From the IMG/VR virus record IMGVR_UViG_3300029268_001171, positions 1 to 43,490 of that record: 43,490 nt of DNA; one strand, given 5' to 3'. The stretch is from a virus. Below, piece by piece: positions 14,109-32,101 of this stretch (its first letter is position 1; the number at the start of each line of letters is the position of its first letter). The position numbers were made by a program, and so were the translations under genes. Under the pieces are notes generated by a model. The model was given only the letters and a program-made list of their open reading frames with translations, had not been told where the DNA came from and ran no database searches.

Positions 14109-14450
14109 TCACGGCACCGGGATCCAGCGGGCGTAGCGCCAGAGGACCATGCGGGAGATTTCCTCGCTCGGCTCGTCCCAGATCCCGCACCGCCGCATTT
14201 CTGCGCGGGCAAAAGCGTCTGCCTCCCACTCGACCCAGAGGCGGGCAATCCGTCGCACCCAGAGCAGGAAACAAGTGACCTCCCAAAACCGGTAGGCGAT
14301 CGTGAGCGTCCGGTGTTGCCGGGCGTGCGCCCACTCGTGGACGGCGACATAGCACGGGGCGTTGGGGTCGAGGTGGATCTTCCTCGTGCGCGGGTCGTAG
14401 TGCGAGCCGCGGACAGTCTCCCAAACCAAGTGGCGTTCTTTTCGGCTCAT
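14109..14450 (-). CDS. small zinc metallopeptidase-like protein, 113 aa
   Basis: The motif VAVHEWAHARQH (residues about 36-47) is an HExxH zinc site. Further on, WVEWEADAFARAEM (about 70-83) supplies the E-x-x-A-D/E-A-D-x-F-A block that gives the third ligand in gluzincin-type and 'Zn_peptidase_2'-like proteins. A hydrophobic segment (RFWEVTCFLLWVRRIARLWV) lies between them and could be a membrane-associated helix. The ATG overlaps the stop of the giant gene (ATGA), so the two are translationally coupled. The protein may process the giant polypeptide or another virion protein, or attack a host barrier; these are inferences. With only 113 residues it has little beyond the zinc core. Confidence 0.65.
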   Translation of the reverse strand: MSRKERHLVWETVRGSHYDPRTRKIHLDPNAPCYVAVHEWAHARQHRTLTIAYRFWEVTCFLLWVRRIARLWVEWEADAFARAEMRRCGIWDEPSEEISRMVLWRYARWIPVP

Positions 14451-17400
14451 GGGAACATGCGCTTGCGGGTCATCGTGCGGGCGTCCTCGAAGGCTTTTCG
14501 AATGGTGTCCACGTCATCGATCTTGGGTTTTGCGATCTTGGCGGCGGTGAGTTTGCCTTTCAGGATCGCGCTGGCAAAGCGTCCGGAGGCGACACTGAAC
14601 CGGTGGTATTGTTCGGCGGTCATCTTGTGCTCCTTGCCTGCGCGCTGGTAGGTGTCTGCCGGGGCCTGGGGAGCATAGGCTTGCGAGGGGTTCTCCCGGT
14701 TCCAGTTGAGAAGCAGGCGGTCGGCGGACTCGAGTTGCGCGTCGGCTTTGAGCGGGGTGGTGAGGAAAAGCCGGAGCACCGGGTTTCCGCCCTTTTGCAT
14801 GTCCTTCCCGTAGATGGTGGTCTTTGGCGGCGCGAAGTCTCCCGAGGGCAGGGCTTGATACATGGCCTCCGCGTGCTTGGTGTCGCGCACGTAGTCATCG
14901 AGGTTGCGAAGCGGCTGGCGGATGATGTTGGGAACGATCGCCTGCATGAGAAACCGCTTGGTTCCCTCGCCGACGTTCGCGCTTCCCTCCAAGGCTCTTG
15001 AAATGTCGGAGAATCCCTGCAGGAACGTCTTGGATTGCGCCTGCGCCATGAGGTAGCCGTAGAGCGCATCCATGTTGTCTGCCGTGGCGCCTTTGCTCTT
15101 GATCGCGCGGATCGTGTCGATGGTGGTTCCCAGCACCGTGGCGAGCGGCTCGTAGCGACCGTAGTGAAAGGTCCACCCATTGCGGCCGCCAATGCGGATG
15201 ACATAATCCCCGCCGTAGGCGCGCTGCTGGAGTTCGCGCTGGCCCCGGCTGATCAAGTTGTAGGGCATCGATCCGGTAATGAGCACCGGCTTGTCATCGT
15301 CGTCCCCGTCGCCTTGGGCCGCTCCCCAAAGCAGGGCGAGCGCGGTCCAGGCAATGAGCTGCTCGGAGACATCGCGCACGGCCTCGGGGTGGGTCGTGAG
15401 GTAGGGTTGCCCGTTTTTCAGTCCCATAAGTCCTCGCCCGACCTGCCATGCCAGATTTGCCGATCCCAGCGGGGTTTTGCGGATCCCCATGCGGAAAATG
15501 TTGTAGGGAGTGCGGACGAACGGAAAAAACAGCCCCAGAAGCCGGTTGCTGCCGCGCATGGTCTGAATCTTGGCCGCGAGGTCCTCGACCATGTTCCCGC
15601 CCTCTTCGCTTTCCCGCAAATCCTGCTGGAAGGTCAGTTCCTTGGATTTTTCCACCGCCCGCTGCCATGCGGCGTCGCTCCAACCGGCCTCGCGGGCCAT
15701 GTCGAAGGCGGTTTGCTCCCGGGCCATCTCCCATGCCTGGCTGGACCGGTCGGCAATGAGATCGTCGGATTTTAGGGTTTCATCCTTCTGAGCGAGCGCC
15801 TTGGCGAAAAATTCGACCATCTCGGCGGATGGCCGGGCCTTGGCGATATTCCCCGCAATCACCTGATCCCGGGTCTGGGAAAGCAGGGCAACGCGATCGG
15901 TAAGTTTCTTTCCAGAAAGCCCTTCGGACTTGGCAATGCGGTAGGCAACCGCCCCCACTTCGACCTGTCCGATGGCCGTCTTAAAGAACGAATCCGCGAA
16001 AAGGAGTGCCCGGCCCGGCACCCGGACCAGCCGGCCCAGCTTGCCGGGGATGGCGGACCGGACGTTTCCGGCCTTGTCGAAATTGTCGATCTCCATCGGG
16101 GTTCCAAGCACCGTGTGCTCAAAAAAGTCGTGTTCGGCGCTCCAAGCGCGTGCGACCATGGAGAGCCCCTTGGCCATTCCGGGGAGGAGCCCTTTTGCCA
16201 AAAAGCGGAATTCTCCGAGCCGGGCGGCCTTGCTGTCGCGGATCACCAGGTTGACCGTCGCCTCCATGCCGCGCTGCACGGTCATATCCCATGCGGCGTT
16301 GACCGTGTTGCCCGCGATATTCACGAATTGGGTTTGTGGCCCGGAGAGGATGTTCATGATCCACCACTCGTAGGCCATATCGAGCACGTTCGCCCGGGTG
16401 GCCGCCTGGATGGCTCGTGCCATTCGCATGACATGGGCGGGATCCTCAATGTTGAACCTTGGCCGACCCTGCTTCGCATCGTCCACGATCCCCAGCACCC
16501 CAAGCCATTTTGAGAATTCCCGCTCGGCAGTGGCATCATCGACGGTCTTCCCGGTAATCAGGGTGGCAGAGTCCGCCTTTGCCCCGGCCTGGAACTTGGC
16601 AAAATGCTGGGCGCGCATCTTGGCGATGAAATCGGTTTTGATCTGCTTGACCTCGGATTCGCTGATTCCCGCGGCCTTGGCGATGTCGGAAAAGGAACGG
16701 TTGCGCAAGATCATCCGGAAAGCCCGCTGGCGGCTCTCCTTGTCTCCGGCGGCGCGGGCAAGGAGTTGAACGAACTCCTCGATGATGTTGCGGTTTTGCA
16801 GGGAGAGCGTCACCCGATCCTTGAGGATGTCATCCACGTTGATCCCGGAGGCCTTGAGTTTTTCCAGCAGCGCCTTGGTCTCGGCGTCAATGATGGCGGT
16901 TTTCTCTGCCGGCGTGGCCGCTGCGTCGATCGCCTTCTGTGCCGCGGGCCGTGGTTTCAAAATCAAATCGGTGAGGAAATCCCGGTAGCGTTGCGCCGGG
17001 GTCTTGAGCGGATCCCGCCGGCTGGCCAGCGCGCGGCCCGCTGCCGTGCCGGTTCCCCGGAATGCCAGCCAAAAGACGTTGAAAGCGGCCCGGCTCTCCG
17101 GCGTTCCGGTTTTCAGCATCGCGTTGCGCAGGTCGGTGGCGATTTTTTCCGCGGCCTTTGTCTGCGCCGGAGAGATCGTCTGCCCGCCCAGACCCGCGCG
17201 CTCGATCGCCAGCTTCGTCCCGGCGTAGTCGCTGGCCAGCATGTTATCGGCTTCAAGCTGCCATTGTGTCTCCGACTGTGGGGAGAAATGGTCGGTGTAG
17301 TATTGGTCGGCTCCCCGCACGTCGGCATTGTCGGCCCCGTGGGCAAGGTCCGGCCGCCCGATCGTCTTGCGCCCCCCGGCGTCTTCCTCAACCAGCGCGG

Positions 17401-20400
17401 CAGCCTGGTAGTCGGGGATCTCGGAATCCAGGTCGCGCAAGAGCGCGTCGATGTCGGAAAAATCCTCTTCGGCAGAGGAATTAGTCTCTTCGGCTCCACG
17501 GGCAAAAAGAGCCTGGTTTTCAGAAAGGGAAATTTCCCCGCCCGGATGGTCAAGCAAATGCACTTTTCCCGAGGCATCGGTAAAGAGAGCGCGGGCCTGC
17601 GGGGTGCGCGGAAGCATCCAATAGGCGCGGCCCGGGTGCGAGGCATAGGCGGAATCGATTTCGCGAATGGTTTTCTGGAATTCCTTTGTGGCAATCTCTT
17701 GCGCGAGGGCAAAGTCCGTCGCGTTCGCCTTGTAGTCGCTCCGGTAAATCGGAAGCTGGCTATTTGTGACAGCAATGCTGCGCTCCCGTTCTCCTCCGGT
17801 TGTCTGGAAGAAATCGGCGAGTCTGGCTACTCCCCATTCTCGGGCTGGAGCGTAGGAGATTCCTTGGAAGGCTCTTTCCGCCGGTATGCCGTAGGGTCCG
17901 CCGTAAGCCTGTGCGCTTTTATCGGGCGAGGGATGCCATGGGGATTGCGTTTGCGATCCTTTTCCAGTTTGCGCCACTGGTTTTCCGGCGTCGTGTGGTA
18001 AGGGGCGGGATATTCCATTTGATTGCCCATACGAATCTCCTGGCGTTTCGTCAACCTGATACCCGCGCGCCATGAGTTGAAGCGTCGAGTTCAACCCGCG
18101 TTCCCCCAGATTTTTCCGCATGATTCGCAGGGCGGCTTTCAATACCTGCTCTGCCCTCTGCTTGCTGAGCCCGCCCATATCCTGCCCGATTTGTTCAAGC
18201 GTCTTGTGCTCGCTGAATCCCTGAATGGCGATCTGCATTTGGGGGGTCAAAGCGGAGATACTTTTATCCAAAACCCTCCTGCTCTCCCTCAAAGCGGCGG
18301 CGTCGGGAGCGGCAAGCGTGCGGGTGTCTGCGGCGAAATCTCCCCGTGTTTCGGAATCCGGGTCATCCGTCCTCGGTTCATCGAGAGAAACCGGAAACAG
18401 GCTGCGCCGGGTATCTTCCTTGCGGTAGAGCGAGCGGAGGCGGTTGCGCACAGAAACCCCGGCATAGGCGGAAAACGGCTTCCCAAGCGTCCCGTCGAAC
18501 TTCCGCGCGCTATCGGCGAGGGCCAGCCGGGCAACCTGCCGGATTTCCTCCTGGTCCACCCCGGGGATGTTGTTCCATGCGGAGGCGATGCGCATCGCCT
18601 GCGGGAGTTCCGCCTTGAACCGATCGAGCGGATACAACTCGGCGTCGGCCTGCGCCGCGGGGCGGTCCTCGGGGATCGAGTCGAAGTCGAAAAGCTCCTG
18701 ATTCGGGTCGTAGGTGGTCTTGCGCGCCTGGAGTTGTTGCGGTGTGTGGGCTCGCTGGTGGCGCTCGTCGGCATAGAGGGCCTCGGTCTCCACCCGTTCT
18801 TGTGAGAGCGTGTCGTATTCCTCTTGATACGGCCATGCTGCCGTTTCGGACATTCCGGCCAGTTGGCGCAAGCGTTCGGAATTCATGGCCTGGCCGCGCC
18901 CGAGAGATTCCACCGTGTCCACAAGCTCCTCCAATCGGGAAAGAAGCGTTCCCGGGCTGGTCACGACTCCAAAGCTCAAATCGTTCTCTGCGTCGGCGGC
19001 GCCGGTCACCAGGTCGAATGTCACCGCGCTCCGCTGCACCATGCGCTTGGCGTCCTCGTCCCATTCGTTGTCCACCTTCACGGTGGGGTGCAGGAAAATG
19101 GGCGTCCCGTTGACAGTGATCGAGGTCACGGGCGGGGAGATCTGGCGACCGTCGGCGCTCAGTCGCAGGGATCCGCGCGAGGCATCCAGCGCGGCCTTGA
19201 CGGCCTCGGCGGTGGCCGCTTTGGTCTCGAATGTCTCCCCGTCCACGGCCAGCACGATCCCCTTCTCGGCGATACCGGCGGCGAGGCGCCGCATCTTCTC
19301 GACAGAGGGAGCGAGGCGGGCAATGCGCTCGTCGTAGATTCGCAGGTGGTTTTGCGCGTTGGAAATCTCGGATTTCCGTCGATCGGCCTCCATTTCGTGC
19401 GCGTAGCGGGACATGCGCAGTTCGTCGAGCCGGGTGTTGATCTCCCAGAGCCGGCGACCGTATCTCCCGGAGAGCACGGCCCGCTGTTCCTGCAGGTTGA
19501 GGCTGGTTTTGTCCTCGGCCAGCTCGCGGCCCTTGATCTTGCCGGAAAGCGCGGCGTAGGCAAACCGCTGCTTGGTCTCAAGCTTTTGCCAGAGGGCGGC
19601 ATCCAGCGTGTCCTCCATGCCATAGCGCAGGAGTTCAATATCAACCCCCATCTCGCCGTGGACGTTTCCCTGGCGGAAAACCCGACCGTCGCGCTGCTCG
19701 AGTTCCGCCGGCGTCCATGGCACGTCCAGATGGTGGGCCGCGATCATGCGTTGCTGCATGTTCACTCCGGTTCCGAGTTTCTTCGTGGACCCGATGATGA
19801 CGCGGATCTTCCCCTCGTTCACCATGTCGAAAAGCGCCAGCTTCTTTTTATCGTTGTTCCATTTGGAATCCGTGATGACGGCGATTTCTTCCGCCGGGAT
19901 CCCTTGGGCGATCAGCTTTTCGCGGATGTCGTCGTAGAGGTTGAACGTCGTCCCCGGTCCTTTTTCGGGATCCAGCTCAATGTCAAGGCTTGAGGGTGTG
20001 ACGGCATCAAAGAGCGTGATTTTCTGTTGGTTGAAGGAATCGGCGAAAATCACCTGTGTGCCCTTGTAGGCGTCGGTGTCGTGGTAAAGGTCCATCAGAC
20101 GGCCAATCATGCGGTTGACCTTGCTGCCGGGTTCATCCTTGGCGCGGGGTTCGATCAGGCGGATGTCGATTGCGGCCGCCCGGCTCGCCATGAACGCCTG
20201 CACGGGCACGGCCCCAAGGCTGGGATTCTCGGCAATGTCCTTCCCGTCGAGTTGGGAATAATCATCCAGAACTCCGCGGATGTAGCGCACCCACTCGGCC
20301 ACGCCATTGCTTCTGGGCACCGCCACGAGTTCCGGGGCGCCGCCTTTGATTCCCGGGCGGTTCTTTACAACAAGGTCGTCTCCCAGTTTCACGTCGGCAG

Positions 20401-23400
20401 CCTGTCGCAAAAACGTGGCCCACTCGGGCAGGTTTACAAACCGGGAAAGCCGGTCCACGTTCTTGAAATCCCCATTGGCTCCCATCTCGCTCTCGGTGGT
20501 GACCACGGCAAATTTGCTCACAAACTGGTCGAAAAGTTCCACCTTGTAATCCCGCAGGACGTTCGGTGCCACCAGGCGGATCATATTCCAGATTTCCCCC
20601 AGCGTGTTTGTCACCGGAGTGCCGGTCATGGAAAAGACGTTTTTTCCACCCATCTGCGCCTGAATCTGCCGGGCGCGCATGAGCAGCGCGTATCCCTTTG
20701 CGCTCATGCCCCCGTCGATCCCCTTCGCCTCAAGCTGGGTGGAGAAGGGCATCTTCTTGAACTCGTGCACCTCGTCCACAATGAGGGCATCCACCCCGAG
20801 CTGTTGGAAATTGAGGAGCCCGGTATCGGTCCGGCGCTTCTTGGCCGAGTCAATGCGGCCTTCGAGTTTTTCGATTTGCTTGACCAGGGCCTTGACCGTC
20901 GGGGGCTTCCGGCGGTCCTCCTTGGCGTCAGCCACACTGTCGTAACCTTTCTCCTTCAACGTGGCCATGGCCTCGTCCACCAGCGCGCGGGAATGTTTGA
21001 TCTCCACCTCGGGATCATCCTCGATGAGACCAAACGTGGAATGGGCGATGACAACGGCATCCCAGTCGCCGGCGGCGATGCGCATCAAGAATTCTTTGCG
21101 CTTGGGTCCGCCCAGCTCGTCCTTGCGCCCGACCAGCACCCGGGCGGTCGGCGCCATCTTGGCGATTTCCTTTGCAAAGCCTTCCAGCGTGGCGTTGTGA
21201 ACCACGATCATGGGCTTGCGCGCCATTCCCAGCCGGCGCATTTCCAGAGCAATGCCGCTGCCGATGATCGTCTTGCCCCCGCCCACACCGTGCGCGATGA
21301 GCCCGAATCCCTCCTGGATCGCCCGCCAAATCGTGTTCTTCTTGTCGGGGTAGATGTTGAAATCCTTGTTCGCCCATGGGAAGGCGAGAAATTGCCCGTC
21401 GTAGGTGCGCTGGACGTGGGAGTTGACTTCCTGATTGTAAACCTCGGCAAGTTCGGCGGCGACATCCTCGGTTCCCCTCACCCAGGAAATGAATTTTTCC
21501 CCCAGCAGTTTCGCCCTTTCGCGCGCGGCGGTGGTGGCTGCCTGGTCGATCCCCCCTCCCTCTTTCTCGCTCTTGGTGATCGTGATGGCCTTGAGATTGA
21601 GCAGGGAATCCATGATCCCCTCGATCGGGGCGGAGGTCGTCTCGTAATCCTTGTATTCCACCCCGCTCTTGGAGTTGCGCTTGTCCCGGACCATCTCCCA
21701 CTCGCTGCGCTCGTTCTCGGTCTTGTAAACGAACCGGTAGCCGGAGACTCCCAGGCTTTCCAGGAATCGGTTGTAAATGTCCGCCGGGATCCATGTCGCC
21801 CCGACCGAAAACCGGATGTCCTCGATGCCGACACGCTGGGGCTGAATGGATTCCAGCATCCGCACATTGCGGGCGTAGTCCGGGCCCGCGGACTGCGCGA
21901 TGATCAGCTTTTTGCGCACGTTGCCCGAAAGGTATTGCTCGCGGGAGAACAGGCGCCCGGTTTCCGGATCCCGCACGGCGATCTCCTGCACAAGCAGGGC
22001 GTTCTCGACTTGCTCGGGGGTCTGTCCCAGCAGGTCGGCCATAAACCGGGAATCCACGGAATTGCGCCAGCCGAGGGAAATCCCAAAGGCATCTTCCAGG
22101 GTGTCCGCCTTGGTCGGCTCGCTGCGCGGCTCGAGCACGCGCTTGGTGAAGATGTCGGCCTTGACGTATTCCTTCTTCTGTCCCTTTTTCGCCCATTCCA
22201 GAATGGCGGACGTGCCCTTGTTGGCCGCTTTTTCCACCTCGGCCCCCAGCAGGCGGAAGTAATCCGGGTCATCGATGAAAAGGGCCTTGTTCCGGCGGTC
22301 GTGGAACTCGGCGAATTTCGCCTTGAAGGCGTCGTAATTCTGGTTGAGCTGGCGGCGGTTGTCTTCGATCTCCTCCGCGCTCGCCGTATCGGAGAGTTCC
22401 AAGTCGTATTGCCGGTTCAGGGCGTCGCGCACGTCGAGGAACCGGGAGACCCGCGGGGCATTCTTCGGGGCGTTGAGATCGGCATCGGGTTCGTCGTGGC
22501 CTTGGAAGTAATATTTCCCGTCCCGGTAAACGATGTTGCCCATTTTGACAACGGAAGCGCCGTTTCGCACCGGGCCGCTCTCCTCCACTTCTCCCATGAT
22601 CCCCTGTGGGATGGTGGCAAGGTCCTGCTGCATCGCCACCGAGGGCGGGCGGTTGGAATCGCCATGGACGGTCATTTCCTCTTTCTCCCCATACATGGAC
22701 CCGTCGTTGTCGAGCAGGCCGAGGATATTCTTGGGATTGGCCGCGAAGTATTCGTTGATCCGGATGTCCGCTCCCTTCTGGGTTTTGGCGTCTCCAAGGG
22801 TCGTCCACGCCTGGGCGTGCGGGAAGGGTTTCCCGTCCTTTTTCCGTAATACAATAATGTCGGTCACCACGTCGGTGCCGGCATTGTCCTTGAAGGCGTC
22901 GTTGGGCAGCCGGTAGGCGGCTACCAGGTCGGCGCGTTCGGAGAGCCATTTGCGGATCTCGGGGTTTCCCTTGTCCATTGTGAACGCGCTGGTGATGAAG
23001 ATTTGCACCCCGCCGGGTTTGAGCTTGGTCAGCGCCTTGCCAAAAAAGTAGTCATGCAGGTTGCTCACGGGTCCGCCCATCGCCTCAAGCGCCTTGTCGG
23101 CAACCGGGATGTTGGCAAACGGCACGTTCGAGATGGCGAGATCAATCGAGTTGTCGGCGATGTCGGCTTTCTGGAACCCGATGTTCTGGATATCGGCCTC
23201 GGGATAGAGCGCCTTGAGAATCTTTGAGGTGTAGGAGTCGAGTTCCACTCCAAAGAGTTTGCTGCGATCGGCAATCTCCTCGGGCATGAGTCCGAAAAAG
23301 TGTCCGATTCCCGCGCCCGGTTCCAAGACATTCCCGCCTTTGAATCCCATCCATTTCGCAATGTCCCACATGGAAGCGATGATTTGCGGGCTGGTGTAGT

Positions 23401-26400
23401 GGGCGTTGATCGTGCTGCGCTTGGCCGCCCGGTATTCCTCCTCGTTGAGAAGGGATTTCAGCTCCGCGTGGGCCTCGCCCCATTGGTTTTTCCAGTTTTC
23501 GAGGGATTGGGCGGCCGCAAGCTGGCTTTCGGCCTCGCTGCGGTAGTAATCGCTGTCCCCGTAGCTGCGGGTGCGCTCTGCCGTGCGCCGGCGGGTTTCA
23601 ATCTCTCCATTCTCCACGCGGTCTGCCTTGTCGTCGTCGAACGCCTGCGAGAGTGCGCCCCAGCCGGAAAATTTCACAAGCGCCTGTTTTTCCTCTGCCG
23701 TGGCCAGCCGGCCCTCGGACTCCATGGCCTTGATGATGCGCAAGGCTTCCAGGTTCGCCCGCAGTTTGCTCACGGTGCCCCGCGGGGCAAGCGCCTGATC
23801 GCGCGAAAGGGTGATGTTGCGAGCGGGATCCCCGACGGGCGGGCGCTGGGTGGTTACTCCTGAACCCGGTTGAGCAATGACATTGCTCTTTTTTGCAGGT
23901 CGGGGGGAAGCGGATCGTCCGCCCTTTCCTCCCAGTCCTCCGGATACGGGAAGAGTTCCTTGAGGGCTTCCGTCTCCTCCCGGTCGTCGAGTTTCATCGC
24001 CTTCACGAGTTGGAGCGCCTTCTGGTCCATCCACTCCAAGAACTCCTCCTCCGGCCCCTCGAGTCGTTCCTGAATCTCGCTCGGCGTCGCGCTGGCCAGC
24101 CAGGACTGAAAACAGGTCTCCCATTCCTCCGTCCGGCGGACGTTCTTGCGTTCTTCCGGCGTGAAGTTTCCGAGCAGGATTCGCTGCTCCTCGGGTGAGA
24201 GTTTGGTTTTCATTTTGTGGCTCCTGGTTGCTGATACGTTTGGGATCTCCATTCGTCAAGGGGCTCCCGAAAAGATCGAGTGCGACCGGGGCGGACACCC
24301 CAAGGTCGGACATGGCGGCGGCGGCTTTTGCCGATGGTGCGGAGATCCCCTCCCCTTGGAGCGCCTTGTCATAGGCGGCGATCTCCGGGGCGGAAAAGGC
24401 AAAGAGGTCGCCGGTCTGGTCGTCTTTGCTGGCGCGGCGGGCCTGCAACTGCACAGCTGGCGGGATATAGCCGTGAACGACGGCGGTTTTCTCCCACATG
24501 GGAAGGTCAGCCGATTGGATGACCCGATGGTAAATCTGTGCGAGGCGGCGTTTGGCCTCGGCTTCGGGGAGGTTCCTTAGTGAACCTTCGGGAGTTTGTC
24601 CCCGTGCTTGGCCTTCCACTCGGCCTTCGCGCGGTCGAAGTGGGCTTGCCTCTCCTGTTCGGTTTGGCCCGCCGGCCCGGTCGGTCTTAGCTTCTTGGTC
24701 TCGTTGGTTTTCATCCTCTAAGCTACCATACGCACTAGACATCAAATCGTCAACGCCTTTTGACCTATAAATGTGATCAATATGGCCTTCGTTGGTAATA
24801 ACCTCGAAGGGATATTTGTCTCCAAATTCGCGATAGAGTCTTAGGAAAACTTTTTGCGCCTCATAGTGCGCCTGGCCGAGGGAATCCTTGTCGAGCGGGC
24901 GTCCGATGTCCCGCAGTCTTTGGATGGCTGCCTCGGAAGCGTTTTGAAACGGGCGATAGACGAAGGTCAAATGAGGAGTCAGCCCGGCTGCCTCAACCTC
25001 CCCAATCATCCTCACCGCCCGGTCATAGTTTCCAAGGACTGTATCCATGAAAATGGCGGTCCGACGCTTGTCGTCATCGTCATACGTCTTGTGAACGGAA
25101 GTCGTCTTCCCGCTGGCCATCCCGCCGGCCATGAAAACCACTGTTCCACGCTTTGAGGGATCGGTGTTTTTGAGCCAGTGATCCCATGCCAGACGGGAGG
25201 TGATGTAGCCAGCCGGTGCCAGCGTGGCCCGGTCTATGGCGGGACGAAGGTCTTTGTTGTCGCGGTAGAGCGGGTAAACATCCCGGGCGAGGTCGGCATT
25301 GAGGTAGCGGCCTTCGGCTTCCTCTCCAAAGTCCTCTTTGGCAAGGGCGGTATATTTCCCAAGGGACTCCTCGGGGGATTTGGAAATTTGCGCGGCAAAG
25401 TGGGCTTCGATCGTGCGCTCGTATCGAGTGAGCCTGGGCGATGGCATAAAGCCGGGGAGCCCGGGATATCCGTTGGCGGCATCGGCCTCGACCGCTGCGC
25501 GAAACGCCTCGGGGAGTCCGTTCCATGCCCCCTGCACCGAGCGTTCGAGTTTTTTGCGCGAGGGATGATCGGCAGGAACGTTGGTTTCCTGCGGCAACGC
25601 TTGAGCAAGGATGTCTTCCGCGGCCTGGCGGCTCGGGCTGTCCACCGGCCTGCGCGCCATGAGCTGCATTTGTTCGACCGGGGCCCGGGGGATCCCGATG
25701 CGCACAAGTTGCGTTTCCAATTGGAAGTTGTCCGATAGCGCTTGGTCAAAGAACCCCATGAACTCCTGCCCGCTGGTCTTTTCAAGCTGGGTGAGTTCCG
25801 CGCTCTCCCAGCGGGTGAGGCTCTCGCCTTGGCGCTTGCGCTGCAGGTCCCGGATCCGGCGCGATCGGTTGAAACCCGTTCCCCGGGATTGGAGTTGGGG
25901 GGAGATCGATGAAACCTTGCGGAAGTGGGCTTCGATGGCTGCGTTGAGCGTCTCGGCCATGGTGGGGGCAGATCCCAGCAGATCGGCCTCACCTGTGAAA
26001 TGTTCCACGCCGCTGGCGAGGTCGGAGAGCAAGTCATCGAATCCGGCAGAGGTCTCGTCGGCATCCACAGAAAAGATGCCTTTTTTGTTCTTCGGAAGGA
26101 ATTCGACCTTCGAAGCGAGCGCGGAGGCGATGGCCTGGATAACCGGACCGTCCTCCCCGATTTCCTGTTGTTCGGCAGCCTGGGAAATCGCCAAGTTGAG
26201 CTTGCGTCCGTTCCGGGCATATTCGCTCACGCGCTCGAGTGTGCGCCCGATGGCGTCGGCAATGTTGCCGTGGCCTTTTGAGCGGAGTTGCAAGGCTGTG
26301 CCCGTCGCGCTCTTGATCAAGCTGGCGATCGTGGCGTGTCCACTCGACCATTGCGCGGAGGTGACAAACTCCCCGAGGGCCTTGCTGCGGAATGCGGCGG

Positions 26401-29400
26401 CAATCAGGAGGCGTTGAATGTAAAATTGCGACTGCGCGGGATTTTTTACCAGACCGGCGACCAGGTTGCGATCGATGCCGAGTTTCTCGGAATCGCGCAC
26501 AAGCCCGACCATGACGTCGCGCGCGGACTCGGGGGAGAGGGAAAGCGGGATGTCGAGCAGGCGTTCGACGGGGATATTCAGCGCGGCGTCGATGTCGGCC
26601 CGGGCGGCGGTGTCCTGCACAACGCCCTGATTGGGGTTGAGCTTATCGACAAGCTGCTGGTATTCCCGATTGCGCGCCTCGTCCCGCAGGTCATAGACCC
26701 CAAGGAAGCGATACCCGCGCCACCCATCTGGCATGTCTGAGAGTCCGAACTGAGCCCCACGGGCGGACCATGCGTCCGAGAGTCGTTCCTGATCCGCAAG
26801 GGGAGCGAGGTTGACTCCCTGTTCCCGGCCATTCCCGCCGGCGGTTTGCAGGGAAACGCGCAAGGCACCGGTGGAATCGTTGAAAATGGCGAGAACGACC
26901 TGGGCCGGGCCGTCGGATGCGCTCTTGGCGTCGGTGACTACGGAATCTTCATCCAGCGCGCCGGCCCGAGCCATCGATAGAACTTTGTTTTGCTCGGTCT
27001 CGTCGCTGTGGTAGGGCCGGGTATTCTCCCCTCCGTAGAGGGGGTTTTTGTGGAAGTCGGTCCCGGCATGGCTGGCCTGCACGGTTCCCGGAGCGGCCGC
27101 CACATAGCTGGCGGGCAGGCGTTCCCGGTTCGCCCCCAGAACGTAGGTGGAGCTTCCCATTTGCACTTGGGTGAGCACGTCGGCGACAAGGGCCCGCGCG
27201 TCTTGTGGAACCTTGGAAAGAATGGCCTCTTTGCTTCCGCTGGCCTCGGCCCGGCGCTGCACCGCGAGATTGCGGCGTTCAAGCGCACGCTCTGCCGCGG
27301 CGTCGCGGTCGGATTTTTCGGCCTCTAATTGAGCCAGTCGCGCGTCCCTCGCTGCATTCGCGGGCGCACCAGTTGATCCAGCAGGAACTCTTGGACCACC
27401 CGGCGCCGGAGTTCCTGCCTCCATCGTTCCCCCGGTATCTCCTCCTCCATGGCCGCCATGACCGCGTTGATTTCCTCCTCTGCCTTCGCTTCCTCCTGCG
27501 GGCTGAGGGGTTCCGGTGGCCGCGGCATCAGTTGGAGTTCTCCCTGCATATTGCGCCTCATACGCGGCACGTCGGGAATTGTCAGCCGCTTTTTGAAAGT
27601 TCCTGAAAATTTTTACCGATTCTTTCCTCGCCTGGTCGATTCGACCCAGCAAATCGTCGATTTCCTCCTTGGGGCGTCCCTCTTTGGTGAGCTGGGCAGA
27701 GAGCGTGCTGCGGATCTCCCCAAAGGCGGCGAGCAACTTTCGGAAAACCTCCCGCAGGCGTTCCACCAAATCGGGGGACATCGTTTGCTCGGTGAGAACC
27801 ACGCCGTCGGCTGTGGTGAATTTCCCGTCGGCAATCGCGATGTCGTGTTGGAGAAACATCCGGAAAAATTCCATGCCGAGCACCCCGGGGGCTTCCAGGA
27901 GTTCTTTTCCCCGGATGGCCCGCACATGGTCCTGAACCTCTTTGGGCAGGTCGCCAAAAATCTCTCCGGCCTCGGCCAGCGCGGAATCAAAGGCGTCTCC
28001 GGCTTCCCCCGTGCGGGAGGAGCGGATTTTTGCCAATGCCGTGATGTTGGCGAGGTGGGAAATTTCCTCGTTGACCGTGCGCTCTGCCCCGGCGTCGTCC
28101 TGCAGGCTGCGAAGTGTCGAGGCGCTGAGAAGGTCGCCAACATTGAAGTTGAACGTCATCCCCTGGCTGACTCCAACTCCTCCCCCTCCCTTTTTTCCCA
28201 TGTTTGCCGCGATCTCGCGGACCGCTCCGGCGTAGGTCAGCAGTTCGGGGGCAATCCGGAGACGGATGATATGGTCCAGGCGCGCCCGCTTCTCCGAGGG
28301 AAGCGCGACGTATTCGGCTCCCAGGTCGGAAACCACCTTCGCGTGGATCGCTTCGATCTCCGGCTGTTGGGATTTGCTGCTGGAAAAAATCGCCTTGCGG
28401 ATGGCCGTCGGGTTGGTGCGTCCCCCGGCTTTCTCGAATTCCGCCACGGCTGCATCGATTTTTCCCGCTCCCCATGCGGTGGTGCCTTCGCGGCGCACAA
28501 AGTAATCCGCATAGTCCTTGGCCGTTGAGGCATCGATCCCGGTTCCCGCCAACCGCGCCTGCAATTGCTTGGACGCGCCTTTTTCCTTCGGCGTGACCAA
28601 GGGGCCAAACTTCCCGACGGGCAAAGGAGGGAGGTCTGTTCCACGCGAAACATTCAAATCGCCTTCCGGCGTTGTTATTCCGGCTTGCCCAGTCGAATCT
28701 TGAGTTTGCGGGCGATTCGCGCCACTTGCCGGCGGGTTGCTCCCTGTTTGATCTGTCGGCGTCCCTGATTGTTGTGGTGTCTCCGGTTCTTCATTTTTTT
28801 GAAGGAGTTCGCCGCGCAGGCTTTCCTCGTCGCGAATGGCAAGTTCTGCGGACATCGGGGCGACCTGCTGCAGGCGCGAAAGCTGTCCCTTGGTGATGAC
28901 AGGAACCCCGCCCACGTCTTCCATGCGGGGGGATTTGTCGGGCAATTTGCTCTCCAGGGCGGTCCGTTCCTCAGCCAGCAGGCTTTCCATGGGCCGCCCG
29001 GAAATGAGTTTGATCGCTCCACTGGCTGCAAGTCGCTCGGTTTGCGCCCCCTCGGGCGAAAGCCCGGCGGGCGGCTGCCAGTTGTCGATCTGGACCTTTA
29101 CCGCGGCAACCTGCTCGGGCAGGATCGCGGGAGCTGCGGGTTTGGCCGGGGTGGCTTTGGGAAGGCTGTCTGCAATTCCCATCGGGGCGAACATCGCGCC
29201 TCCGGCGGCTCCGGCAACGATGTTTTGCCCGAGTCCTTTGGTGAGAGTTTTCCCTGAAAAATCTCCGCTGATCGAGGAGGTATTGAGGTTGGAAAGGATC
29301 TGTTGCTGGCCTTCCTGCAACCCTTCGAATCCCGACTTGACCGCGCCATCGGTGAGGATCTTTGCTCCCAGCGCCAGTTTCGGACGGGAACCGGAAAATT

Positions 29401-32101
29401 TCGCGATCTGCCTCTTGAGGTATTTCCCTCCGGGGATTTTATCCCATGGCACTTTTCCAATCAGCAGTTTGTCGGCAAAGGTTTCCAGAACGGCATTAGG
29501 GATGGCGCTTCGCAGGGCCGTCCACGTCGCTTCGGCTTCGAAGTTTTCCCGTTCATTCTGCGGAACATTTTTCAGCCATTGTTCAGGGGTCAGGCCTTTT
29601 TTCTGTGCTTCCCGGGCGGCGATGGCTTCGAAGTTTTGTCCCTTGTCCTGCTGGAGCATTTGCAGGGTATTCGAGGTGAAGTTCGCCGCGGTTCCCAGGA
29701 ATGCCGTGGCAATATTGGGCGCCGCCTGTGTGACGCCTTGAATCCCCGCCGTCGTGAGCCAGTGCATACGCGGATCGTCGGGAAACGATTCTTGGACTCC
29801 TGTATTTTCCTCCCGGAACTGTCGGGCTTTGGCCTGGCGCTCGCGTCCGAATTCCGTTCCTTTGAAGATGGCCGCAAGCACCTCGTCCGCGCCTCCCCAA
29901 AGCGAGGTCCACACGCCAATGAATCCCTTCGCATTGTTGTGATACCACATGCGAACGTGGTCGGCGGCCTCCGGCTCCTCGAAGAGTTTTTTATCCAGGT
30001 CGGAAGTGCCGGGATACAGCTTCTCCATGACCGGGCGCATCTGAATGGCGAACTGCTTCTTGTAAGCGGCGACTTCCGCCGGGGTGAATTTTTCCAGCCC
30101 CTTCCCGCTTTTGATCGCCTCGATGATGGTATTTGGGTCGTCCTCTCCCTCGAAAACCTTCCCCACTTTTTGAATCGCCTGGGACTCTTCGTTGGTGAGG
30201 CTCCCGTCGTGCCCCATGACGATGTTATTGACCGCCCGGCTGTGAAGCTGGCTTTGCTTCGCATAGGTTCCTTCAAGGGCAGAGAGAGTTACCGCCTTGC
30301 TGTCCTGAAAAGCTGCCTGCAATTCCTCGTTGGTCGCGTTGGGATTGTTGGCGGAAAGGTAATCGCGATTCTGCGCCTTCCACTCGTCAAAGGTCTGGTT
30401 TTTCCAATAGTCGTAATGGCCTTTGATTTTGTCATAGACCGCCCGGTAGTTTTTCTCCTCTTGGAATTGGATTTGCTTTTCCCGGGGGAGTGCCCGCCAT
30501 GCCTTTTTGTCGGCGGCGTCCCATTTCGTCTCGTCGAGGCTTTTGGGGAATCCTCCGCTTGCCGCTACTCCGAATTCTGAGGAAATCTCGTTCTGCTTTG
30601 CCTGGAGTTCTTTCTGCAGCGCATCGGTGGCCGCTTGTTTCTCCGGTCCGTCGGGCATCGCCTGGACTGCGGCAAATCGCTGGGTGGCCTCTGCGTCGAG
30701 CGCGTCGAGCCGGTCGGCGAATGGCGCCGTGGCAGGATTCTCCCGGATTTTCGCGCGATCTGCCTTTGTTTGTTCGCTGCGCTTCTGCTGGATTCCTTGG
30801 ATTCCCGCGTTGGTCTCGTCGGCCATGGCATTGCGCCGGGCGAGCGATTCCTGAATTGCCTGGCTTTCGGAAAGCAGGCCGGCGCGTTCGCGTTCGATCT
30901 CGGCGGACCGCTCGGCGGTGACCCCGCGCTGTTGCTCCAAGTTGAGGGCGGCAGAGCGTTCTTGGAGTTTCGTGGACCGGGCAGTGATCTCCTGGTCCGC
31001 GCCCTGTAACTCGGCTCCGCGCTTTTCCAATTCGGCGGCAGCTTGTTCGGGAGGAAGATTCGCGAGCCCGGCGGCGCTCTGGGCTCGGCGGCGGCCGAGA
31101 AATCCAACCGGCCCGCCATCCTTCGCCGATTTGTGGGCAACGGCCAGCTCGTAGGACTGCTTTTCCATCCCGGCGCGCTCGTCGTCGAGAGCCAGCGCGG
31201 AATCGATCTTCGAAAGTTGGGCCTTGCGCTCCTCTTCCTGGGCAATCCAGGCGGTGTTCGCGTCGGCGGTCGCCTGCTGGTTCACGCCAATGCCGAACAT
31301 TCCGGACTTCGGGGCAGGCTTGGGCGTTTCGACTTGGAGTGCCTCCCTCGTGGTGGCGAGTTCTTCCCGCTTGGTCGGAGCCAGCTTGGGTGGACGGCTC
31401 GGGTCGCCCAGCTTCAAGGCAATGTCGGCGCGGTCGCTCTCGATCTTCTCGAGTTCGCGGCGGTGAAGGAGCCGGGCGCTGGCGGCAACCAGCTTCCCGT
31501 CTGAGGATTTCAGGCCTTCCTCGGGATCAACCGGCTGCCATGGTGTCGCCTTGGTCCTGCGATAAATGAGCGGGTCGTTCGGGTCGTCCGGGTTCTCGCC
31601 ATAGTCGGCGTTCTGGTCGGGATCCTCGATCGTGCGCGACCCGTCCTCGGAAATCCGGACCTGATACGGTTTCCCCGAGGCATCAAATCGCACGGGCGTC
31701 GTGCTCGGGGTGAATTTCCGCTTTCCGGTCTCGGCATCGATCACGGGTTGAGCCAATCCGCGCTCGTCGGTGAGGTATTGCGCCCCGGTCTGCTTGGAAT
31801 CCCGACGGGCCTTGGTGTTGTGGATCCGTTTTGCGTTGGCCGCGGCGGTCCTCGCATCGAATCGCTTGACCGACTGGGCATGTTCGGCAATCCGGTTCAG
31901 ATTGCTCATGGCCGAGCCCGGGGTCTGGCTCAATCGCGGAAATTCCGGCGCGCTTTCCGAGGAAGGAATTTCCTCCGGAGTGTCGGAAGGAACGTAGTCC
32001 TCCGGGGTGGAGCCCGGTATTGGCTCCTCAATGGGATCCGGCTCAGGAGTTACGGCTGTCTGCCGTCTCTGCTGTTCCTCTTCGTCGGAAGGAAACCCCA
32101 T
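14447..32101 (-). CDS. giant polyvalent protein, 5,884 aa
   Basis: One uninterrupted frame. Domains in order (approximate residues): 1-60 acidic/Pro-rich; 200-500 coiled coils; 640-1000 helical virion-like region with a glycine-rich stretch; 1340 NEEISHLAN, a degenerate zincin-like site; 1670-1760 DdrB-like ParB domain (ASHAGTDFHKNP, GGNGREQGV); 2320 zeta-type kinase P-loop GGMASGKTT; 2924 EPGAGIGHF and 2990 NVPFA of an N6-adenine methyltransferase; 3605 GVGGGKT, 3770 DEVH, 4135 QRDGRVFRQGN of an SNF2-like helicase; 4490-4675 sigma-70-like regions 2 and 4; 5130 another HTH; 5240-5884 LPD38-like C-terminal region with FFPFVRTPYNI and a hydrophobic helix. Such polyvalent proteins are thought to be ejected with phage DNA and to protect or establish it. 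Five linkers are overprinted by small ORFs. It is coupled to the zincin downstream. Confidence 0.9.
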   Translation of the reverse strand: MGFPSDEEEQQRRQTAVTPEPDPIEEPIPGSTPEDYVPSDTPEEIPSSESAPEFPRLSQTPGSAMSNLNRIAEHAQSVKRFDARTAAANAKRIHNTKARRDSKQTGAQYLTDERGLAQPVIDAETGKRKFTPSTTPVRFDASGKPYQVRISEDGSRTIEDPDQNADYGENPDDPNDPLIYRRTKATPWQPVDPEEGLKSSDGKLVAASARLLHRRELEKIESDRADIALKLGDPSRPPKLAPTKREELATTREALQVETPKPAPKSGMFGIGVNQQATADANTAWIAQEEERKAQLSKIDSALALDDERAGMEKQSYELAVAHKSAKDGGPVGFLGRRRAQSAAGLANLPPEQAAAELEKRGAELQGADQEITARSTKLQERSAALNLEQQRGVTAERSAEIERERAGLLSESQAIQESLARRNAMADETNAGIQGIQQKRSEQTKADRAKIRENPATAPFADRLDALDAEATQRFAAVQAMPDGPEKQAATDALQKELQAKQNEISSEFGVAASGGFPKSLDETKWDAADKKAWRALPREKQIQFQEEKNYRAVYDKIKGHYDYWKNQTFDEWKAQNRDYLSANNPNATNEELQAAFQDSKAVTLSALEGTYAKQSQLHSRAVNNIVMGHDGSLTNEESQAIQKVGKVFEGEDDPNTIIEAIKSGKGLEKFTPAEVAAYKKQFAIQMRPVMEKLYPGTSDLDKKLFEEPEAADHVRMWYHNNAKGFIGVWTSLWGGADEVLAAIFKGTEFGRERQAKARQFREENTGVQESFPDDPRMHWLTTAGIQGVTQAAPNIATAFLGTAANFTSNTLQMLQQDKGQNFEAIAAREAQKKGLTPEQWLKNVPQNERENFEAEATWTALRSAIPNAVLETFADKLLIGKVPWDKIPGGKYLKRQIAKFSGSRPKLALGAKILTDGAVKSGFEGLQEGQQQILSNLNTSSISGDFSGKTLTKGLGQNIVAGAAGGAMFAPMGIADSLPKATPAKPAAPAILPEQVAAVKVQIDNWQPPAGLSPEGAQTERLAASGAIKLISGRPMESLLAEERTALESKLPDKSPRMEDVGGVPVITKGQLSRLQQVAPMSAELAIRDEESLRGELLQKNEEPETPQQSGTPTDQTGSNPPASGANRPQTQDSTGQAGITTPEGDLNVSRGTDLPPLPVGKFGPLVTPKEKGASKQLQARLAGTGIDASTAKDYADYFVRREGTTAWGAGKIDAAVAEFEKAGGRTNPTAIRKAIFSSSKSQQPEIEAIHAKVVSDLGAEYVALPSEKRARLDHIIRLRIAPELLTYAGAVREIAANMGKKGGGGVGVSQGMTFNFNVGDLLSASTLRSLQDDAGAERTVNEEISHLANITALAKIRSSRTGEAGDAFDSALAEAGEIFGDLPKEVQDHVRAIRGKELLEAPGVLGMEFFRMFLQHDIAIADGKFTTADGVVLTEQTMSPDLVERLREVFRKLLAAFGEIRSTLSAQLTKEGRPKEEIDDLLGRIDQARKESVKIFRNFQKAADNSRRAAYEAQYAGRTPTDAAATGTPQPAGGSEGRGGNQRGHGGHGGGDTGGTMEAGTPAPGGPRVPAGSTGAPANAARDARLAQLEAEKSDRDAAAERALERRNLAVQRRAEASGSKEAILSKVPQDARALVADVLTQVQMGSSTYVLGANRERLPASYVAAAPGTVQASHAGTDFHKNPLYGGENTRPYHSDETEQNKVLSMARAGALDEDSVVTDAKSASDGPAQVVLAIFNDSTGALRVSLQTAGGNGREQGVNLAPLADQERLSDAWSARGAQFGLSDMPDGWRGYRFLGVYDLRDEARNREYQQLVDKLNPNQGVVQDTAARADIDAALNIPVERLLDIPLSLSPESARDVMVGLVRDSEKLGIDRNLVAGLVKNPAQSQFYIQRLLIAAAFRSKALGEFVTSAQWSSGHATIASLIKSATGTALQLRSKGHGNIADAIGRTLERVSEYARNGRKLNLAISQAAEQQEIGEDGPVIQAIASALASKVEFLPKNKKGIFSVDADETSAGFDDLLSDLASGVEHFTGEADLLGSAPTMAETLNAAIEAHFRKVSSISPQLQSRGTGFNRSRRIRDLQRKRQGESLTRWESAELTQLEKTSGQEFMGFFDQALSDNFQLETQLVRIGIPRAPVEQMQLMARRPVDSPSRQAAEDILAQALPQETNVPADHPSRKKLERSVQGAWNGLPEAFRAAVEADAANGYPGLPGFMPSPRLTRYERTIEAHFAAQISKSPEESLGKYTALAKEDFGEEAEGRYLNADLARDVYPLYRDNKDLRPAIDRATLAPAGYITSRLAWDHWLKNTDPSKRGTVVFMAGGMASGKTTSVHKTYDDDDKRRTAIFMDTVLGNYDRAVRMIGEVEAAGLTPHLTFVYRPFQNASEAAIQRLRDIGRPLDKDSLGQAHYEAQKVFLRLYREFGDKYPFEVITNEGHIDHIYRSKGVDDLMSSAYGSLEDENQRDQEAKTDRAGGPNRTGEASPLRPREGRVEGQARGQTPEGSLRNLPEAEAKRRLAQIYHRVIQSADLPMWEKTAVVHGYIPPAVQLQARRASKDDQTGDLFAFSAPEIAAYDKALQGEGISAPSAKAAAAMSDLGVSAPVALDLFGSPLTNGDPKRISNQEPQNENQTLTRGAANPARKLHAGRTQERPPDGGMGDLFSVLAGQRDAERDSGTTRGAGGGVLGVDGPEGAPTREGDETRRPGGDGSPQGTLPVSGGLGGKGGRSASPRPAKKSNVIAQPGSGVTTQRPPVGDPARNITLSRDQALAPRGTVSKLRANLEALRIIKAMESEGRLATAEEKQALVKFSGWGALSQAFDDDKADRVENGEIETRRRTAERTRSYGDSDYYRSEAESQLAAAQSLENWKNQWGEAHAELKSLLNEEEYRAAKRSTINAHYTSPQIIASMWDIAKWMGFKGGNVLEPGAGIGHFFGLMPEEIADRSKLFGVELDSYTSKILKALYPEADIQNIGFQKADIADNSIDLAISNVPFANIPVADKALEAMGGPVSNLHDYFFGKALTKLKPGGVQIFITSAFTMDKGNPEIRKWLSERADLVAAYRLPNDAFKDNAGTDVVTDIIVLRKKDGKPFPHAQAWTTLGDAKTQKGADIRINEYFAANPKNILGLLDNDGSMYGEKEEMTVHGDSNRPPSVAMQQDLATIPQGIMGEVEESGPVRNGASVVKMGNIVYRDGKYYFQGHDEPDADLNAPKNAPRVSRFLDVRDALNRQYDLELSDTASAEEIEDNRRQLNQNYDAFKAKFAEFHDRRNKALFIDDPDYFRLLGAEVEKAANKGTSAILEWAKKGQKKEYVKADIFTKRVLEPRSEPTKADTLEDAFGISLGWRNSVDSRFMADLLGQTPEQVENALLVQEIAVRDPETGRLFSREQYLSGNVRKKLIIAQSAGPDYARNVRMLESIQPQRVGIEDIRFSVGATWIPADIYNRFLESLGVSGYRFVYKTENERSEWEMVRDKRNSKSGVEYKDYETTSAPIEGIMDSLLNLKAITITKSEKEGGGIDQAATTAARERAKLLGEKFISWVRGTEDVAAELAEVYNQEVNSHVQRTYDGQFLAFPWANKDFNIYPDKKNTIWRAIQEGFGLIAHGVGGGKTIIGSGIALEMRRLGMARKPMIVVHNATLEGFAKEIAKMAPTARVLVGRKDELGGPKRKEFLMRIAAGDWDAVVIAHSTFGLIEDDPEVEIKHSRALVDEAMATLKEKGYDSVADAKEDRRKPPTVKALVKQIEKLEGRIDSAKKRRTDTGLLNFQQLGVDALIVDEVHEFKKMPFSTQLEAKGIDGGMSAKGYALLMRARQIQAQMGGKNVFSMTGTPVTNTLGEIWNMIRLVAPNVLRDYKVELFDQFVSKFAVVTTESEMGANGDFKNVDRLSRFVNLPEWATFLRQAADVKLGDDLVVKNRPGIKGGAPELVAVPRSNGVAEWVRYIRGVLDDYSQLDGKDIAENPSLGAVPVQAFMASRAAAIDIRLIEPRAKDEPGSKVNRMIGRLMDLYHDTDAYKGTQVIFADSFNQQKITLFDAVTPSSLDIELDPEKGPGTTFNLYDDIREKLIAQGIPAEEIAVITDSKWNNDKKKLALFDMVNEGKIRVIIGSTKKLGTGVNMQQRMIAAHHLDVPWTPAELEQRDGRVFRQGNVHGEMGVDIELLRYGMEDTLDAALWQKLETKQRFAYAALSGKIKGRELAEDKTSLNLQEQRAVLSGRYGRRLWEINTRLDELRMSRYAHEMEADRRKSEISNAQNHLRIYDERIARLAPSVEKMRRLAAGIAEKGIVLAVDGETFETKAATAEAVKAALDASRGSLRLSADGRQISPPVTSITVNGTPIFLHPTVKVDNEWDEDAKRMVQRSAVTFDLVTGAADAENDLSFGVVTSPGTLLSRLEELVDTVESLGRGQAMNSERLRQLAGMSETAAWPYQEEYDTLSQERVETEALYADERHQRAHTPQQLQARKTTYDPNQELFDFDSIPEDRPAAQADAELYPLDRFKAELPQAMRIASAWNNIPGVDQEEIRQVARLALADSARKFDGTLGKPFSAYAGVSVRNRLRSLYRKEDTRRSLFPVSLDEPRTDDPDSETRGDFAADTRTLAAPDAAALRESRRVLDKSISALTPQMQIAIQGFSEHKTLEQIGQDMGGLSKQRAEQVLKAALRIMRKNLGERGLNSTLQLMARGYQVDETPGDSYGQSNGISRPLPHDAGKPVAQTGKGSQTQSPWHPSPDKSAQAYGGPYGIPAERAFQGISYAPAREWGVARLADFFQTTGGERERSIAVTNSQLPIYRSDYKANATDFALAQEIATKEFQKTIREIDSAYASHPGRAYWMLPRTPQARALFTDASGKVHLLDHPGGEISLSENQALFARGAEETNSSAEEDFSDIDALLRDLDSEIPDYQAAALVEEDAGGRKTIGRPDLAHGADNADVRGADQYYTDHFSPQSETQWQLEADNMLASDYAGTKLAIERAGLGGQTISPAQTKAAEKIATDLRNAMLKTGTPESRAAFNVFWLAFRGTGTAAGRALASRRDPLKTPAQRYRDFLTDLILKPRPAAQKAIDAAATPAEKTAIIDAETKALLEKLKASGINVDDILKDRVTLSLQNRNIIEEFVQLLARAAGDKESRQRAFRMILRNRSFSDIAKAAGISESEVKQIKTDFIAKMRAQHFAKFQAGAKADSATLITGKTVDDATAEREFSKWLGVLGIVDDAKQGRPRFNIEDPAHVMRMARAIQAATRANVLDMAYEWWIMNILSGPQTQFVNIAGNTVNAAWDMTVQRGMEATVNLVIRDSKAARLGEFRFLAKGLLPGMAKGLSMVARAWSAEHDFFEHTVLGTPMEIDNFDKAGNVRSAIPGKLGRLVRVPGRALLFADSFFKTAIGQVEVGAVAYRIAKSEGLSGKKLTDRVALLSQTRDQVIAGNIAKARPSAEMVEFFAKALAQKDETLKSDDLIADRSSQAWEMAREQTAFDMAREAGWSDAAWQRAVEKSKELTFQQDLRESEEGGNMVEDLAAKIQTMRGSNRLLGLFFPFVRTPYNIFRMGIRKTPLGSANLAWQVGRGLMGLKNGQPYLTTHPEAVRDVSEQLIAWTALALLWGAAQGDGDDDDKPVLITGSMPYNLISRGQRELQQRAYGGDYVIRIGGRNGWTFHYGRYEPLATVLGTTIDTIRAIKSKGATADNMDALYGYLMAQAQSKTFLQGFSDISRALEGSANVGEGTKRFLMQAIVPNIIRQPLRNLDDYVRDTKHAEAMYQALPSGDFAPPKTTIYGKDMQKGGNPVLRLFLTTPLKADAQLESADRLLLNWNRENPSQAYAPQAPADTYQRAGKEHKMTAEQYHRFSVASGRFASAILKGKLTAAKIAKPKIDDVDTIRKAFEDARTMTRKRMFP
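17827..18030 (-). CDS. embedded small ORF, 67 aa (overprints giant gene after sigma-like domain)
   Basis: This frame is +1 relative to the giant gene and overlaps its residues about 4691-4758. The ATG at 18030 has AGGAG six bases upstream, a near-ideal Shine-Dalgarno site. The product starts MGNQMEYPAPYHTTPENQWR and continues KLEKDRKRNPHGIPRPIKAH; it is basic, with Trp, Tyr and His residues and balanced composition, unlike shadow translations. In the same DNA the giant frame reads a Gly/Ser/Pro/Gln-rich linker. An earlier in-frame TTG at 18054 is less likely as the start. Function unknown; it may be a small early or DNA-binding protein. Confidence rests on the ribosome site and composition, not on a family match. 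Confidence 0.6.
   Translation of the reverse strand: MGNQMEYPAPYHTTPENQWRKLEKDRKRNPHGIPRPIKAHRLTADPTAYRRKEPSKESPTLQPENGE
23854..24213 (-). CDS. embedded ORF, 119 aa (overprints giant gene before methyltransferase/helicase)
   Basis: The largest embedded ORF, in the +1 frame relative to the giant gene (its residues about 2630-2749). ATG 24213 has AGGAG seven bases upstream; an earlier ATG at 24252 lacks this. The product, MKTKLSPEEQRILLGNFTPE then WETCFQSWLASATPSEIQER and EEEFLEWMDQKALQLVKAMK, is acidic and mostly helical, with normal amino-acid variety. It looks like a folded phage protein. Over the same stretch the giant frame is a GGxGG, Arg/Pro-rich linker. It ends just before the methyltransferase-helicase module begins. 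Function unknown. Dual coding is the best explanation, since the giant frame stays open over all 119 codons. Confidence 0.65.
   Translation of the reverse strand: MKTKLSPEEQRILLGNFTPEERKNVRRTEEWETCFQSWLASATPSEIQERLEGPEEEFLEWMDQKALQLVKAMKLDDREETEALKELFPYPEDWEERADDPLPPDLQKRAMSLLNRVQE
24577..24714 (-). CDS. embedded small ORF, 45 aa (overprints giant gene after zeta-like kinase)
   Basis: ATG 24714 to TAA 24577 in the +1 frame relative to the giant gene (its residues about 2463-2508). AGAGG directly precedes the ATG, so the Shine-Dalgarno spacing is poor. The product, MKTNETKKLRPTGPAGQTEQ then ERQAHFDRAKAEWKAKHGDK, is charged and helical, and has the look of a small real protein. In the giant frame the same DNA reads RAGGPNRTGEASPLRPREGR, a low-complexity linker right after the zeta-like kinase. 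The embedded frame starts like the 119-aa ORF (MKT). Function unknown. Confidence 0.45.
   Translation of the reverse strand: MKTNETKKLRPTGPAGQTEQERQAHFDRAKAEWKAKHGDKLPKVH
27325..27549 (-). CDS. embedded small ORF, 74 aa (overprints giant gene before ParB-like domain)
   Basis: In the +1 frame relative to the giant gene, overlapping its residues about 1518-1592. I chose ATG 27549 because GAGG lies six bases upstream; GTG 27570 and ATG 27528 are alternatives. The product, MQGELQLMPRPPEPLSPQEE then AKAEEEINAVMAAMEEEIPG and ERWRQELRRRVVQEFLLDQL, is strongly helical with an acidic N-half and a basic C-half. In the giant frame the same DNA encodes GGSEGRGGNQRGHGGHGGGD, a Gly/His/Arg linker between the zincin-like and ParB-like modules. 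Function unknown; a small adaptor-like or DNA-associated protein is possible. Confidence 0.55.
   Translation of the reverse strand: MQGELQLMPRPPEPLSPQEEAKAEEEINAVMAAMEEEIPGERWRQELRRRVVQEFLLDQLVRPRMQRGTRDWLN
28675..28794 (-). CDS. embedded small basic ORF, 39 aa (overprints first linker of giant gene)
   Basis: In the +1 frame relative to the giant gene, overlapping its residues about 1103-1142. The product, MKNRRHHNNQGRRQIKQGAT then RRQVARIARKLKIRLGKPE, is very basic and has a helix-turn-helix-like 'TRRQVARIARKLKI' end, as in small nucleic-acid-binding peptides. No Shine-Dalgarno site is visible; a run of seven A precedes the ATG. The giant frame here reads a Thr/Gln/Pro/Ser-rich linker between the N-terminal virion-like region and the zincin-like region. 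This is the weakest of the five embedded ORFs by ribosome site, but its residue pattern is convincing. Confidence 0.4.
   Translation of the reverse strand: MKNRRHHNNQGRRQIKQGATRRQVARIARKLKIRLGKPE

Follow-up and report, generated by a model that had tools for sequence, protein, structure and literature searches.

Evidence for a small gene nested in the +1 frame of a giant DarB-like antirestriction gene of phages

Introduction

Can the low-complexity linker of a giant phage protein be, at the same time, the coding sequence of a second, much smaller protein? This question is raised by a viral sequence of 43,490 nt (IMG/VR record IMGVR_UViG_3300029268_001171, positions 1 to 43,490; hereafter the window), in which one gene of the minus strand (14447–32101) encodes a protein of 5884 aa. 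A first-pass annotation of the window, made from the letters alone, pointed to an ORF of 119 codons inside this giant gene as its strongest single case for dual coding. To our knowledge, long genes that are fully nested on the same strand have seldom been proven in bacteria or tailed phages, and annotation normally drops them.

The giant is a DarB-like polyvalent antirestriction protein with a methylase–helicase dyad. It matches phrog_10089 (E = 0, 1335 bits) and carries SNF2-rel_dom and Helicase_C matches (19667–20656, minus strand), and so meets the test for a DarB-like protein, a methylase fused to an SNF2-type helicase. The N6-methylase domain (22985–23341, minus strand), just downstream of the nested ORF, is recognized by a Methyltransf_31 match that scores under the cut-off of that family; a Zeta-toxin-like kinase match lies upstream of the ORF (24767–25069, minus strand). 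Multi-domain polyvalent giants of this class, including DarB and the methylase–SNF2 dyad, were described in phages and conjugative elements by Iyer et al. 2017 (PMC5512222), and the text of that paper makes no mention of TnpV or of overlapping genes. Our literature search, which did not reach many subscription papers, found no paper describing the nested genes considered here.

Results

Position, start and product of the nested ORF

The ORF (nested ORF1, P0001; 23854–24213, minus strand) meets the positional test for an overprinted gene, as it lies wholly within the giant gene on the same strand and is offset from it by one base (the +1 frame). It begins with an ATG at 24213 and its stop codon ends at 23854. 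The Shine–Dalgarno sequence AGGAG (24221–24225, minus strand) is separated from the ATG by seven bases, CCACAAA, so that the length, start and spacing first proposed match the sequence exactly. An alternative in-frame ATG at 24252 would yield a 132-aa product; this version is less favoured because the homologues start near 24213. The translation of the giant confirmed that its own frame is here a GGxGG/Arg/Pro linker.

The product had been expected to be an acidic helical protein, and it has a pI of 4.55 and a charge of −12; AlphaFold2, run on a six-member alignment, predicted an all-helical structure with good confidence (pLDDT 84.8, pTM 0.78). Foldseek comparison of this model with PDB and BFVD gave no match, and neither did a search of the protein against PDB sequences. 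Nothing meaningful was found in PHROG, NCBIfam or Pfam, and there was no match in tblastn against the phage collection, in a scan of genome contigs with the family profile, or in a comparison with TnpV (PF14198, family cut-off 27 bits).

Selection on both reading frames

Five other viral contigs (L002, L003, L004, L005 and L010) encode homologues of the nested protein with 45–63% identity. In all of these and in the window the giant frame is uninterrupted and the nested location identical, and the proposal of dual coding, which the absence of homologues would have refuted, is thus supported. The family (A3) has six known members including the window, and the pairwise comparisons within it are not independent.

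When the giant was recoded synonymously, the nested frame stayed open in 6–38% of the trials per genome, so the length of nested ORF1 alone is not beyond chance. The same probabilities (0.06–0.38 given the giant) lend some support to the possibility that a Gly/Arg-rich linker automatically yields an acidic helical frame whose conservation is merely borrowed from the giant, as does the fact that GGA/GAG-rich DNA is read as Gly or Glu according to frame. The significance of nested ORF1 comes not from its length but from its codon-position composition, substitution pattern, frozen synonymous codons and conserved ribosome sites. The GC content at the three codon positions of the giant is about 0.64/0.45/0.73 elsewhere and changes to 0.78/0.65/0.44 over nested ORF1, a flip that restores a normal coding pattern when the DNA is read in the nested frame. 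Differences between genomes are most frequent at the third position of the nested codons and rarest at the second. The latter coincides with position 3 of the giant, which as a rule is free to vary, and position 1 of the giant is the silent site of the nested gene. When five giants were aligned codon by codon over their full length, the region of nested ORF1, i.e. the Gly/Arg/Pro linker (23830–24268, minus strand), is the sole stretch where the giant position 3 is less variable than position 1. Between the window and L002, 46 of the 50 synonymous giant codons over nested ORF1 are identical against 21.3 expected (z 7.2), and in a sliding synonymous-constraint scan of the whole giant the nested ORF1 windows come first (mean z 4.16; background sd 0.87), which bears out its initial ranking as the best dual-coding case in the window. 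In 15/15 pairs, conservation is also higher for the nested protein than for the part of the giant that overlaps it; purifying selection on the nested frame exceeds that on the host frame, as the test for an overprinted gene demands. A frame merely shadowing the giant would account neither for these frozen synonymous sites and this better conservation nor for the presence, at the same site elsewhere, of a true TnpV that has stand-alone homologues (see below). The shadow explanation is refuted by the codon-position pattern and retains next to no credibility.

Any second constraint can reduce change at position 3 of the giant, and the lowered change observed over nested ORF1 could in principle be due to an RNA structure or a DNA site that is conserved, rather than to a protein. 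As inferred from the sequence comparisons alone, the three-base periodicity fits the nested frame, with its position 3 free and its position 2 tight, the constraint spans exactly the ORF, and indels are tolerated only in threes. We therefore regard an RNA or DNA element as the cause to be hardly conceivable.

The reverse possibility is that the giant is not one protein, nested ORF1 being a normal gene between two others and the giant frame being open by accident. The linker is indeed of low complexity, and the nested frame exceeds it in conservation. In recoding simulations, however, the probability of the giant frame being open given the nested protein was 0.04 for the window and fell to <0.0002 in three genomes, although none of the six relatives has the frame interrupted; since it would rarely stay open by chance, both frames are maintained, and the test of a maintained host frame is also met. 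Moreover, the homologous giant of the Bcep22-like phage JC1 is annotated as one protein of 4515 aa and was detected in virions (PMC9144972). A split giant is accordingly very improbable. As judged from these comparisons, nested ORF1 is kept by natural selection in the related phages.

The next peaks in the same constraint scan are two further ORFs in the same relative frame of the giant. Nested ORF2 (27325–27561, minus strand; 78 aa) has a C-terminal LLDxIRPPGLQ-like tail conserved in L002–L005. Nested ORF3 (17827–18030, minus strand; 67 aa) is preceded by AGGAG (18037–18041) six bases before its ATG, and its MEYPxPYH start is conserved in three of four relatives (L003–L005) and absent in L002, where the region differs. 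Both are weaker cases than nested ORF1, with support mainly among L003–L005.

Counterparts at the same linker in other phages

A TnpV-like ORF of about 105 aa lies directly ahead of the methylase domain in twelve sequences (the A4 family), from phages of Klebsiella, Erwinia, Vibrio, Pseudomonas, Ochrobactrum, Agrobacterium, Sinorhizobium and Microcystis and from two viral contigs. Nesting in the +1 frame, as in the window, holds for all of the twelve except Sinorhizobium phage PBC5. There the TnpV-like segment (L036 7495–7803) continues the frame of the upstream half of the giant; this split may be natural or may come from a frameshift introduced by sequencing. The family phrog_938 likewise terminates with an A4-type segment. 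Nested counterparts are also present at this linker in Burkholderia phages, the version of the Lessievirus being more distant (z 4.8). No clear nested ORF was found at this site in four giants (L011, L012, L020 and L045).

In the phage records checked the nested ORFs are unannotated, only the giant being given or, in Pseudomonas phage Itty13, other frames; there the giant region (L031 4588–15846) is annotated as three hypothetical proteins of the opposite strand, apparently by mistake.

The constraint seen in the window family recurs here. In L017 and L018, whose nested ORF is homologous to the A4 type (hhalign 94%), position 3 of the giant differs least across the nested ORF, and synonymous codons are identical in 44/46, 47/48 and 38/40 cases against about half in the neighbouring intervals. 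In the Erwinia pair the nested ORF is the top synonymous-constraint interval of the entire giant.

How ribosomes would enter the nested frame has to be considered at this point. A Shine–Dalgarno sequence of at least 4 bases precedes 18/21 nested starts against 24% of other +1 ATGs (P = 5e-9); in the window family no clear one is found before the nested start in L003–L005 (3/6 members). Shine–Dalgarno-like sequences are able to stimulate frameshifting, and ribosomes reading the giant might slip by a programmed +1 frameshift into the nested frame, producing a shorter giant that ends in the helical domain and lacks the methylase–helicase half. PBC5, whose A4-type domain terminates the upstream half (orf33), and phrog_938 would both agree with such a product, although the PBC5 sequence may itself contain a sequencing frameshift. 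In the Erwinia and Klebsiella phages, on the other hand, an in-frame stop lies two codons upstream of the nested ATG, which leaves almost no room for slipping and argues against access by frameshifting, and start codons with enriched Shine–Dalgarno sequences at initiation spacing fit initiation. We consider frameshifting unlikely and favour independent initiation.

TnpV at the equivalent site of Firmicutes elements

Two contigs of gut phages or elements (L042 and L044) carry nested ORFs that are genuine TnpV (PF14198; E 1e-24 and 4e-39, 86.8 and 133.5 bits, above the family cut-off), located in the same frame inside a methylase–SNF2 giant. Among 29 TnpV loci of Firmicutes, 8 (L047–L054) are nested in open frames of ~920–2,460 codons, and the remaining 21 are not within a long frame, i.e. 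tnpV also exists as a stand-alone gene. Over the nested tnpV genes of L047–L054, and exactly there, change at position 3 of the giant is 0.12–0.15 against ~0.45 around them. The nested Firmicutes genes start behind AAAGGAG at good spacing, and their frame relative to the giant is identical in all nested cases. The existence of TnpV as a single gene at other loci makes it probable that, of the two frames, the nested one came first and that the Gly/Arg/Pro linker of the giant was overprinted on it later. In an SNF2-related gene of an Enterococcus faecalis plasmid (L076 5502–11699) we noticed a +1-frame TnpV-like tblastn match with a stop near the start of the match.

The relationship of the three types of nested protein is not equally clear. 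Pfam TnpV is matched by 8/12 A4 proteins, but weakly: the best E is 1.8e-4, and the scores (20.7 bits with one protein, 22 bits when the genome was searched) stay under the 27-bit cut-off. The window family could not be aligned by profile with A4 (hhalign 0.5%, z 0.14), and its hhalign values against TnpV or A4 are 0.5–0.6%, with no Foldseek link either. The predicted helices of the window protein (residues 29–41, 44–52, 55–75 and 80–87) and of A4 (2–18, 20–29, 32–52 and 57–68) are likewise not linked by Foldseek; the two families have in common the site and the frame and, apparently, the order and similar lengths of the helices and an LFP motif after helix 4. The window family may be either a much-diverged homologue of TnpV and A4 or a replacement of it, and we do not file it as TnpV.

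Discussion

We observed two constrained frames, recurrence of nesting at one site and frame, and enrichment of ribosome sites; the ORF at 23854–24213 is very probably a real protein-coding gene nested in the +1 frame of a DarB-like giant, its translation, history and function being inferred. In the absence of expression data, ribosomes would most likely initiate independently at ATG 24213 by means of AGGAG, and other ribosomes would read the giant frame straight through nested ORF1. Its product may represent, in the window, a small helical protein that many methylase–helicase giants encode at the same site and in the same frame and that, at the equivalent nested site of the Firmicutes elements, is TnpV. 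Historically, a tnpV-like gene is likely to have stood ahead of a methylase–helicase gene, to which an upstream gene was then fused across the intact small gene.

TnpV of the Tn4451-type elements (PF14198) is a close known parallel in position, being nested in the same linker and frame before the methylase–helicase module in Firmicutes and weakly matched by A4; unlike A4, the window protein has no detectable similarity to it. The genes have been described as stand-alone and postulated to be excisionase-like (PMC3158075), and by analogy a DNA-binding helper is an alternative role for the nested protein. The Dar system of phage P1 (DarB with Ulx, DdrB and Hdf) offers another comparison, as the giant of the window is DarB-like and P1 DarB, a head protein ejected with DNA, depends on small partners from the head, among them Ulx (PMC9024508, PMC12810830), which is listed as aiding DarB localisation (PMC9024508). 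By this analogy, the simplest guess is that the nested protein is a partner translated from the mRNA of the giant that aids folding, packaging or inactivity of the giant before ejection, a role that we can put forward only tentatively and that is open to considerable doubt. The equivalence is not positional: in P1, ulx stands on its own directly downstream of darB, and darB itself contains no nested ORF of this kind, so Ulx was rejected as a positional equivalent of the nested protein. Rz1 within Rz, noted in Bcep22-like phages (PMC9144972), resembles nested ORF1 in lying entirely inside a second gene of the same strand while being read in a different frame. Rz1, however, is a lysis lipoprotein in a small host gene, whereas proteins of the nested ORF1 type are cytoplasmic and helical, lie in a virion gene of 4,000–6,000 codons and are common to conjugative elements.

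A more general hypothesis is that methylase–helicase antirestriction giants have, in the tnpV-like gene, an obligate partner encoded in cis. Fusion of the giant across this intact gene, whose alternate frame became the linker, would explain why the nesting and its frame have persisted all the way from Firmicutes conjugative elements to podoviruses of Proteobacteria, and some giants, including that of the window, would carry up to three such genes. We find this plausible, with the doubts still slightly outweighing the support. The recurrence of a nested gene at one site and frame in Firmicutes elements and in phages of Proteobacteria and of a cyanobacterium, with selection on both frames clear in several independent comparisons, indicates that a component of a widespread antirestriction machine has been overlooked, and provides a concrete case of gene fusion through overprinting of an existing gene. 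It also suggests that further genes may be concealed in linkers of low complexity elsewhere among the giant proteins of phages, and a scan by codon position can detect them.

Several minor observations were made along the giants. At the same linker, unassigned +1 ORFs are present in three other giants (L021 5684–5914, L030 8708–9022 and L046 3708–4016), the last resembling the Burkholderia type by eye. The Erwinia phage giants contain a further conserved +1 ORF upstream (L025 6287–6598 and L026 6053–6364), whose substitutions follow the same signature as those of the nested ORFs at the linker (0.28/0.18/0.10). In the giant of the window, matches resembling sigma-70 region 2 (18413–18619, minus strand) and region 4 (16613–16708, minus strand) stand far apart, with nested ORF3 between them.
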